Shown piece after piece: positions 11,992-15,608 of a stretch of DNA of 27,300 nucleotides (its first letter is position 1; each line of letters opens with the position of its first letter). Both the position numbers and the translations under genes were made by a program. The notes under the pieces were generated by a model. That model had not been told where the DNA came from and did no database searches. It saw only the letters and a list, made by a program, of their open reading frames with translations. Source of the stretch: a virus; the IMG/VR virus record IMGVR_UViG_3300027782_000298, positions 1 through 27,300 of that record; one strand, given 5' to 3'.

Positions 11992-12726
11992 TTATAACTC
12001 TTGCTCTGCTAAGTGACAAAAAATGCCACATTCAATAGCTTGCTCTGTTGGGTAATCCCCAGCATCTAAAGGTAGTTCTGTAAGCCAAATGCGTTCACCC
12101 TTGTGCTTAAGGATTTTAGCCCCCACAGTACGCTCCATAAGCGCCATACGGTCAAATTGCTGGGGAAAGTCGTGTCGAATCTTATTCCAGTACCCAAGAC
12201 CGCCTTTAACGCACCCAATACAGTTATTGTTTTGGTATCCAAGTTTATACATTGCTGGTAATTCAATGCCAGCACGGTCAATCATTGCCAAGCAATCAGA
12301 CTTTTTAAGTCCTTTTTCTATCAAAATAGACCATAAATTAACATCATTGTTGGCATCAATGAACCTATCTACACGGTCTTGTTCTTCTGCCGTGTAACCA
12401 AATACTTGCTTGTCATTAGGCAATTCAAACGCTTTACGCATATCTTTTTTAAGGTGTACCGTACAAGGCGCACCACCAATACCAACAATATATTTACGCT
12501 TTTCAAATACTTCATAAATACTGCCGTTGTACTTGTCGTTTTGAATAACTTTTATGGGTTGACCAAACCACTTTTCACAATCATGCATAAACCGTAAATT
12601 GTCAGGATGTTCTTCCCTTACATGGCAATAAACTACTTCTACAGGAATTTTGCTTTCTGCAATAGCTAGTTTGGTAGCTACGGCACTTGCTGCACCGCAA
12701 GAAAACCAACTAATAACTCTAGTCAT
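11992..12726 (-). CDS. PAPS reductase-like PP-loop enzyme
   Basis: A 244-residue protein of the adenine-nucleotide alpha-hydrolase (PP-loop) superfamily. The loop is SCGAASA (9-15), in place of the SGGxDS consensus. EEHPDN (38-43) follows, then GGAPC with C88, and NNNCIGCVKGG with C169 and C172. Phage members are annotated as PAPS reductase-like, but no sulfate-assimilation context is present. A role in thiolation or other modification of nucleic acid is possible, and the Cys set could hold a metal or Fe-S cluster. The ATG at 12726 overlaps the regulator stop; a TTG at 12738 could add four residues. Confidence 0.75.
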   Translation of the reverse strand: MTRVISWFSCGAASAVATKLAIAESKIPVEVVYCHVREEHPDNLRFMHDCEKWFGQPIKVIQNDKYNGSIYEVFEKRKYIVGIGGAPCTVHLKKDMRKAFELPNDKQVFGYTAEEQDRVDRFIDANNDVNLWSILIEKGLKKSDCLAMIDRAGIELPAMYKLGYQNNNCIGCVKGGLGYWNKIRHDFPQQFDRMALMERTVGAKILKHKGERIWLTELPLDAGDYPTEQAIECGIFCHLAEQEL

Positions 12727-12988
12727 TCTGTTGTCCAAAAGCGTTGTTTTTTAACAACTCAGGCCATATAAGCCAAAAGTTAGTAGGAAACAAGTCTTGG
12801 CGAGTTACCAAGCCATGACTTTCTTTTTCAATCCTAGCGCCCAAAAGCATATATTTATCGGCTGGAATACCACGCACACGCCAGTTAGACACGGCTGCGT
12901 TATCTACCATACACATCCTAGCCACCTTTGCTGTACCCCCCAAAAGGTCAATAATTGCACCGTCTGAAATCTTTAATTTTCTGTCCAT
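12719..12988 (-). CDS. Cro/YdaS-like DNA-binding regulator
   Basis: An 89-residue protein. Residues 8-46 match the Cro/YdaS helix-turn-helix: DGAIIDLLGGTAKVARMC, then VDNAAVSNWRVRGIPADKY. The C-terminus (LFPTNFWLIWPEL) may form the dimer interface. It is the first gene of the leftward early operon, directly beside the divergent promoters, so it is the obvious candidate to regulate both early transcripts, including its own. No partner CI is seen in the window. Overlap with the PP-loop gene is a few bases. Confidence 0.8.
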   Translation of the reverse strand: MDRKLKISDGAIIDLLGGTAKVARMCMVDNAAVSNWRVRGIPADKYMLLGARIEKESHGLVTRQDLFPTNFWLIWPELLKNNAFGQQND

Positions 12989-14289: not shown

Positions 14290-15036
14290 ATGAGTCAGCA
14301 TTGGTATTGCGCTTTAACTGGCGCACCAAGATATACAAAACTGGGCAAGAACGGCAAAGAACGCTCAGTAACGCTTCGTGACGCTAAAGCAGAGCCTGGT
14401 ACTTTAGTTCCATCTGTGTCTACCATAAATGGGCAATTATCCAAAGATGGGCTAAATACATGGCTTCAAACAGAGGCCATTAAAGCTGCTGCGGAAAATC
14501 CACGCCAAGAAGGTGAAGAAGAAAAAGACTACATCAGCCGAGTGCTGGAATTGTCTAAGAGAAAATCCCAAGAAGCTATGACTAGGGGAACTCTTATACA
14601 TGACTTTATAGAGAGCTTCTACAACCAAGAATATTTACCAGAGATGCCTACCTATGTCCGTAAGGTAGATGAGGCTATAACGGCTCATTTTGGGGCGCAG
14701 CTATGGATTGCAGAGCAAAGTCTGGTTAACCAAGAAGGCTATGGCGGCAAGTGTGATTTATATTGCAAAGCAAAAGGGGACTTTGGTGGGGTTGTTATTG
14801 ACTTTAAGACGACAGAAAAATCCCCTGGTGATTTAACACCCTATCTAGAGCATACACTACAGCTTGCAGCCTATAGAGAGGTGTTAGCACCTACCGCTAG
14901 GTGTGCAAATGTGTATATAAATGGCGTAACTGGGGAAGTTGCCATCTATGAACACAGCGAGCAAGACATTCGTGATGGGTACGAAATGTTTTTGGCTTTA
15001 TTAAAAATATACAAACTTAAAACTGGTTTAAACTAA
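14290..15036 (+). CDS. PD-(D/E)XK exonuclease, RecB/Cas4-like
   Basis: A 248-residue nuclease of the RecB/Cas4 type. GTLIHDFIE (100-108, with H104) is the first motif, D156 in GGKCDLY and D171/K173 in VIDFKTTEK the catalytic core, and QLAAYREV (191-198) the trailing QxxxY motif. Such phage enzymes resect DNA to load an annealing protein, here ERF. N-terminal residues 10-60 (TGAPRYTK, then PSVSTINGQLSKDGLNTW) match relatives in this family. AAGGGGAA precedes the ATG by 5 bases. Confidence 0.85.
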   Translation: MSQHWYCALTGAPRYTKLGKNGKERSVTLRDAKAEPGTLVPSVSTINGQLSKDGLNTWLQTEAIKAAAENPRQEGEEEKDYISRVLELSKRKSQEAMTRGTLIHDFIESFYNQEYLPEMPTYVRKVDEAITAHFGAQLWIAEQSLVNQEGYGGKCDLYCKAKGDFGGVVIDFKTTEKSPGDLTPYLEHTLQLAAYREVLAPTARCANVYINGVTGEVAIYEHSEQDIRDGYEMFLALLKIYKLKTGLN

Positions 15037-15356
15037 TTCACGAGGCGGTAGGTGTGCTTTCCCCTTTGCACAACCACACATCACGGAGTCCTGCCGCCTC
15101 ACCTTATTTAAGGGCGCTAAGCCGCCATAACAGGATGCAGTAAGTTAGGGTTTTTGCGGCTTTCCACCTAACAGCTAGTAACTGCTAAATGTTGCCCTGT
15201 TGTATTTATGCAAAACTTAGGGTAAACACCTATGTAAAAGACTTACAATTACTAATAAATTAGCTACATCAGGTCATCACACTAGTTAGACAAGTACTCG
15301 CAGACGAACGCTCATCATAGAATTTGACCTGATATTTTTTTAAAAAGGGGAATTAA
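15037..15356 (+). ncRNA. 320-base structured non-coding region, possible RNA
   Basis: No credible gene fits here. It holds several inverted repeats. An 11-base stem with one wobble, 15042-15052 with 15090-15100, encloses a hairpin at 15053-15057 with 15068-15072. Nested helices follow: 15127-15134/15196-15203, 15137-15141/15181-15185 and 15144-15149/15167-15172. The hexamer-closed loop contains GCGGCTT (15156-15162), complementary to AAGCCGC at 15119-15125, which would form a pseudoknot. The end is a 9-base stem and T-run. Some 6-7-base pairings are expected by chance in 300 bases, so folding is suggested, not proven. It lies between two plus-strand genes, ends before an AAGGGGAA site, and could alternatively be an origin or leader. 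No known RNA family recognised. Confidence 0.4.
15268..15341 (+). terminator. Long-loop terminator-like inverted repeat
   Basis: ATCAGGTCA (15268-15276) pairs perfectly with TGACCTGAT (15325-15333), followed by A and seven T. The 48-base loop is long for an ordinary terminator, but the stem plus T-run is the expected form, perhaps with inner pairing. The lipoprotein SD lies just beyond, so a promoter would be needed downstream or readthrough allowed. Confidence 0.4.
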
Positions 15357-15608
15357 ATGAAACGATTATTTTTATTTGCACCATTAGGTTTGGTTGCTTG
15401 CAGTTCTTTTGATGTACCAAATGCAAACCTTGAAACTGACAAAACCACTTACCACATGAGTAGAAGCCAGGTAATCCTTGGAATAAATGAGTGTGAGTCT
15501 GCTGGCACAAGACCAGTTGTTATTAGCGCCAAGCGCAAAATCAACGGTGTGACATCAGATGTACCTGTAGAGGTAACTTGCCACCCACGCTATAAGATTT
15601 TTAATTGA
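15357..15608 (+). CDS. Small phage lipoprotein
   Basis: An 83-residue protein with a type II signal: KRLFLFAPLGLVAC, Cys 15 being the lipidated residue of the LVAC box. The mature part contains YHMSRSQVILGINECESAG, then AKRKINGVTSDVPVEVTC, a pattern found in many small phage proteins. It would be anchored in the host membrane and might alter the surface or block superinfection; function is unproven. AAGGGGAA stands 6 bases upstream. Confidence 0.8.
   Translation: MKRLFLFAPLGLVACSSFDVPNANLETDKTTYHMSRSQVILGINECESAGTRPVVISAKRKINGVTSDVPVEVTCHPRYKIFN

Follow-up and report, generated by a model that had tools for sequence, protein, structure and literature searches.

Results

The non-coding stretch behind the exonuclease gene

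The 27.3 kb of DNA analysed here, referred to below as the window, come from an uncultured phage (positions 1 to 27,300 of IMG/VR record IMGVR_UViG_3300027782_000298), the terminase of which is 40-44% identical to the terminases of Rhodoferax phage P26218 and of Pelagibacter phages. A PD-(D/E)XK exonuclease gene (exo), the last gene of an erf-ssb-exo recombination operon, lies directly 5' of the non-coding stretch and is the anchor gene of the element described here. Upstream of this rightward operon, a YdaS/Cro-like regulator is encoded on the minus strand (12719-12988; PF15943, 1.1e-7). The exo stop codon occupies 15034-15036 and the next start codon lies at 15357, as the initial annotation had placed them, and only open reading frames of 24-29 aa are found in between. 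Past the small gene that begins at 15357, an endolysin gene (GH108) runs on the opposite strand. The stretch is best explained as the untranslated 3' part of the recombination operon (erf, ssb and the exonuclease) together with the region in which the next gene starts.

The initial annotation had described an 11-base stem, a set of nested colinear helices, a 7-base pairing of a loop with an upstream strand, and a 9-base stem followed by A and seven T, and each of these is present in the sequence (Table 1). It had also cautioned that short pairings are expected by chance in this length, and the caution was apt, as the fold energy is only modestly unusual (z -2.2). Because this energy evidence is weak, relatives were gathered for covariation analysis: 80 loci were found by the exonuclease protein and more by DNA patterns, and together they comprise one phage group and a more distant set. 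The 3' flanks of these relatives divide the stretch into three separately inherited modules with their own boundaries (A, C and D), not one structure.

Table 1. Features of the exo 3' region in the window, with examples of module B from other viral contigs
Feature	Position	Strand	Properties
PD-(D/E)XK exonuclease (exo)	14290-15036	+	Pfam PDDEXK_1 2.8e-7; PHROG exonuclease 1.2e-18
Module A, three-way junction	15042-15100	+	Folds of variants; 13 distinct P1 arm pairs
Module A, P1	15042-15052/15090-15100	+	Part of three-way junction; 11 bp, GAGGCGGUAGG with CCUGCCGCCUC
Module A, P2	15053-15057/15068-15072	+	Loop UUUCCCCUUU, 15058-15067
Module A, P3	15078-15079/15088-15089	+	Loop AUCACGGA, 15080-15087; 2 bp in the window; longer in relatives
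Module C, 89-nt pseudoknot RNA	15111-15199	+	R1 covariance model, 104.4 bits
Helix a	15112-15115/15194-15197	+	100% paired in 36 sequences; two-sided changes at 2 pairs
Helix b (pseudoknot)	15119-15125/15156-15162	+	AAGCCGC with GCGGCUU of the apical loop; 100% paired in 36 sequences; two-sided changes at 3 of 7 pairs
Helix c	15129-15132/15190-15193	+	100% paired; two-sided changes at 3 pairs
Helix d	15137-15141/15181-15185	+	Nearly invariant
Helix e	15144-15149/15167-15172	+	Two-sided changes at 3 pairs; loop holds pseudoknot strand
Conserved A+T-rich block	15200-15232	+	TTG-N8-CAA, then AGGG..CCTA; between C and next gene
Module D	15268-15341	+	Outer stem 15268-15276/15325-15333 (9 bp); interior of about 48 nt; A 15334, seven T 15335-15341
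Next gene	15357-15608	+	83-aa lipoprotein-like small protein without known family; other genes here in relatives
Module B examples	L329-L430 (e.g. L363:11270-11320); L327:21988-22055; L324:3222-3270

Module C is a conserved pseudoknot RNA on the plus strand

Module C, the best supported of the three, was aligned without gaps over 89 columns in 36 diverse sequences, and 96.1% of the cells in its nested helices and pseudoknot are standard pairs. Two-sided changes occur at 11 of the 27 pairs, in 76 cells against 22 by shuffling (0/500), in a test that ignores phylogeny and shared ancestry; sliding the partner strand by 1-3 columns lowers the pairing to 32-51%. Covariation, which the initial annotation had proposed as a check and which is the decisive evidence here, exceeds the shuffled expectation in module C, and stems A and D covary as well. 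RNAalifold recovers helices a, c, d and e unprompted, from the alignment alone. Helix d, being nearly invariant, offers no test of covariation. For helix b, compensatory changes in relatives include GCCAC/GUGGC, AACCGC/GCGGUU and GCCGU/ACGGC, and by inspection the linkers permit the pseudoknot. The covariation would also fit a switch that alternates between helix b and the nested helices. A competing nested fold, in which a 5' GGGC pairs with the e' strand, appears in the minimum-energy folds of some sequences and is not kept in others.

The unpaired bases of module C are nearly invariant, with conserved GGAU, UUUU, UUUC and AAAU. Free variation in length, which the initial annotation would have held against a structured RNA, is a property of the spacers but not of module C, the length of which is fixed. 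Counted over 119 unique module C sequences, G.U pairs fill 71 cells at 11 column pairs, compared with four A.C cells at a single column pair; this asymmetry indicates that the functional molecule is a plus-strand RNA and not a DNA cruciform or an origin. The covariation and the strong bias for G.U over A.C on the plus strand therefore support the suggestion that the stretch holds a structured non-coding RNA.

Occurrence and surroundings of module C

Of 78 exo-anchored loci, 71 contain the element, as does the window; a covariance model of module C (R1) finds it once in each of these, at full length, on the strand of exo and without indels. The remaining seven loci (L033, L044, L045, L046, L051, L058 and L075) do not have it, which indicates that it comes and goes as a whole and is not essential in all of these phages. 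Among 200 matches to the module C pattern, 190 lie just behind exo, and no exo is detectable on the pieces that carry the remaining 10. The genes that follow module C differ, as do the distances to them, and the intervening DNA includes repeat-rich or A+T-rich inserts that are sometimes long. The conserved A+T-rich block downstream of module C is also found in loci that lack the module. In distant relatives, this block is followed by a promoter match (TTGACA-17-TATACT, 11/12); one such site per region is about the shuffle expectation, and two loci share the same place. The sigma-70 matches (11/12) at L178:2065-2093 and L247:5524-5552 lie less than 100 nt past module C and carry a GTTAAG..CTTAA palindrome in the spacer.

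The initial annotation had offered a regulatory leader as one reading of the stretch. This fits module D only, which stops just short of the next gene's ribosome-binding site, and not module C: because the following genes and their distances differ, the upstream exo stays constant, and a promoter match lies in between in distant relatives, module C is not the leader of one gene. The same observations suggest that it is either the 3' part of the upstream transcript or an RNA of its own.

Relatives carry several further elements. In three loci, the 5' hairpin and module C are separated by a tRNA-Asn(GTT) gene (L072:6817-6892, L073:6817-6892 and L177:2716-2791). Arrays of TGTAAAGTT-like and TATACATAT-like repeats, which are possibly iterons or regulator sites, stand between module C and the next gene in L003, L018, L027, L038 and L040, and none is present in the window. 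Betaproteobacteria-1 RNA (RF02932) scores above threshold on one contig with module C (L253:7006-7128) and on one with module B (L342:2885-3005), which hints at betaproteobacterial hosts.

No match to the region was obtained by BLAST against 50,697 phage genomes. In the order of Caballeronia arvi, neither R1 (300 genomes) nor the exo protein (399 genomes) gave a match, nor did R1 in phages with a related exo or terminase (MW202674, MW202545, S72, MW202710, P26218, HTVC100P and Venkman). When 84,980 prokaryote genomes were scanned for the exact pattern, 39 matches came back, which is about the chance expectation, and none had the fold on inspection.

The flanking modules

Module A begins 5 nt past the exo stop codon in the window and forms a three-way junction in most variants. 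P1 is built from 13 distinct arm pairs across the 22 variants, almost all of them paired throughout, and own arms pair at 6.95 of 7 positions compared with 4.96 of 7 for mismatched arms. The loop of P2 (UUCCCCUUU, 15058-15067) is complementary over 9 nt, without a mismatch, to the AAAGGGGAA ribosome-binding site in front of the next gene (15345-15353); the latter site is used by many genes in these phages, and the CCCC loop is absent from some module A variants. Stop-codon readthrough via module A was considered and ruled out, as the frame closes after four codons.

In more distant phages, in which exo is about 45% identical, other hairpins replace module A, and module C is still found downstream; the 5' hairpins are thus exchangeable among relatives while their position is kept. 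One of the replacements, module B, is a stem with a bulged-G motif (GAAA/AGUA). Module B, with the consensus GGGGGAAAGC-N-GCRAGUACCCCAC and variants thereof, also occurs in at least 120 viral contigs, about 10 nt or less past the stop codons of ssb-like genes (protein tail DDDIPF) and other phage genes and just 5' of the following gene; the one stretch tested had no Rfam match. The A-B-C cassette is intact in L069 although an additional reading frame stands between it and exo. This frame (L069:2710-3183; also in L076) resembles, by eye, an HNH-type homing endonuclease.

Module D lies directly 5' of the next gene's ribosome-binding site and occurs with or without module C. Its own arms pair at 8 of 8 positions, compared with 6.9 of 8 for mismatched arms. 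As an intrinsic terminator (G+C-rich stem, loop of 3-8 nt, T-run), module D was not called, its loop being about 48 nt long.

Likeness of module C to the Rhizobiales RNA At1

At the gathering threshold, Rfam 15 has no match in the window. The best match below threshold, at full length, is RF02496 (Atu_At1), a small RNA of soil bacteria of the Rhizobiales, with 22.8 bits and an E-value of 0.14 for 331 nt searched against 4227 families, from which At1 was picked. The family threshold of 60 bits is missed in the window and in relatives (12.7-22.8 bits), and module C is therefore not filed under RF02496. The At1 model nevertheless lies over the same place, along positions 1-108 of its 108, in 9 of 11 phage records (13-23 bits). 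Conversely, R1 run on 80 kb of At1 loci gave only two matches, both on At1 and both weak (E 0.33 and 7.1).

Fifteen At1 sequences from Rhizobiaceae plasmids and Rhizobiales genomes were aligned. In the place that corresponds to helix b, they carry a 7-bp pairing (AACCGGA/UCCGGUU) that is kept in 104 of 105 cells and shows two-sided changes at four pairs; this pairing is missing from the cmscan structure line, on which pseudoknots cannot appear. At1 shares with module C the order of its helices, a GGAU/CAA internal loop and a covariance-model alignment over the full length. In the apical loop of both RNAs, UUUU stands before the knot strand and UC after it, and the 7-bp pairing begins AA/UU. 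The two differ in that the 5' knot strand of At1 sits in a small hairpin loop, giving kissing loops, and in that At1 has an additional small hairpin in its 3' linker. Furthermore, At1 occurs in varied contexts on the chromosomes and plasmids of Rhizobiales, and not in these phages. An At1-type knot pattern searched for in viral contigs had one match, which on reading was no real At1.

Within these replicons, At1 stands in varied intergenic contexts and not ahead of one gene, which suggests a free-standing RNA. Several At1 copies adjoin DNA repair genes (L314-L323 and L267-L274), namely ligD and the imuA/dnaE2 region, and other neighbours, read from the starts of their proteins, are probably mpg (3-methyladenine glycosylase) and xthA (exodeoxyribonuclease III). 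A shared theme of At1 near repair genes and module C behind a recombination nuclease is suggestive only, and several of the At1 loci share ancestry.

Discussion

Our comparison of relatives resolves the stretch behind exo into an exchangeable 5' hairpin, a pseudoknot of fixed size and a separate stem in front of the next gene. On sequence evidence, we lean towards a reading in which module C, belonging to the untranslated 3' part of the recombination operon and preceded by an exchangeable hairpin, is a pseudoknot RNA with a fixed fold that works through a conserved partner. The plus-strand transcript would carry, in this order, a hairpin for protection or docking (module A in the window, others in relatives), the pseudoknot and the leader stem of module D. 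Module C may form a fixed three-dimensional RNA, in which helices a, c, d and e would build a rod that contains an internal loop (GGAU/CAAA), and its apical loop would fold back so that seven of its bases pair with the strand 5' of helix c. We infer that a conserved partner, most likely a protein, recognises module C as a processed or independent small RNA that would be stable in the cell. The exact length and the nearly invariant unpaired bases suggest recognition of a shape by such a partner rather than pairing with varied mRNAs.

Module C represents a new RNA family, which is probably a distant phage branch of At1. A common origin of the two, although not proven, appears quite likely to us.

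An unlikely alternative is that the A and B hairpins and the pseudoknot serve only the stability or processing of the mRNA, by shielding the exo 3' end from 3'-5' decay or by marking a site of cleavage, with no action in trans. The start of module A a few nucleotides past the exo stop codon, the B hairpins that, in many further phage contigs, stand just past the stops of genes including ssb-like ones, and the exchange of 5' hairpins at a kept position are all what such an element would show. However, a simple protective hairpin needs neither a fixed 89 nt nor nearly invariant loops nor a pseudoknot. Hairpins between the genes of early operons are also known from T7-type phages, where intergenic processing hairpins (RNase III sites) separate the genes; the element here differs from these in its three-way junctions, its bulged-G stems with conserved loops and its pseudoknot.

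It is doubtful that module C, and At1 with it, is a self-cleaving ribozyme or a ligand-sensing element with a catalytic or ligand-binding pseudoknot core. The compact pseudoknot with its conserved unpaired motifs, and an architecture common to a wide phylogenetic span, would suit such a core, but matches to known ribozyme or riboswitch families are absent from the Rfam search, there is no tie to one downstream gene and a conserved expression platform is lacking. We give equally little credence to a related idea, that a single unrecognised superfamily of compact pseudoknot or kissing-loop RNAs, built around a catalytic or ligand-binding core, has module C as one branch and At1 as another. If this were true, it would define a new class of ribozymes or sensors, spread over freshwater phages and Rhizobiales replicons, with the phage copies beside recombination genes.

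Regulation of the next gene in cis, by a leader or an attenuator, is similarly improbable as the explanation of the stretch. The U-run of module D right before the ribosome-binding site, the covariation of its stem and the complementarity between the module A loop and the AAAGGGGAA site speak for such control. Against it, module C is present whichever gene follows, across spacers that are variable and sometimes long and repeat-rich; modules D and C occur independently of each other; module D fails the terminator consensus; and the CCCC loop is lost in some A variants. Phage RNA structures in early operons also include the put RNAs of HK022, which act in antitermination; those sites lie at the starts of early operons, whereas the element here is behind the recombination genes.

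A DNA-level element, that is a replication origin (which the initial annotation had also considered) or a packaging or recombination site, is very improbable, for although the stretch lies between the early and late operons and iteron-like repeats such as TGTAAAGTT stand here in some relatives, the 71:4 asymmetry is specific to one strand, which is always that of exo, and by inspection the window contains no such repeats.

GOLLD and ROOL, large RNAs linked to phages and lake samples, were also compared; GOLLD is several times larger than the element here, and an Rfam search of the region gave no match to either, even at an E-value of 10. PMC12286853 describes GOLLD and ROOL as ornate structured bacterial RNAs.

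In summary, we describe a structured RNA family that shows strong covariation, occurs in many freshwater phage contigs and has no entry in Rfam 15. Our analysis also reveals reusable intergenic RNA modules in phages, placed directly behind ssb and exonuclease genes. In addition, the orphan Rhizobiales small RNA At1 gains a distant relative and a long-range pairing that is supported by covariation. If the kinship is true, studying At1 in a genetically tractable host could reveal the role of the phage RNA.
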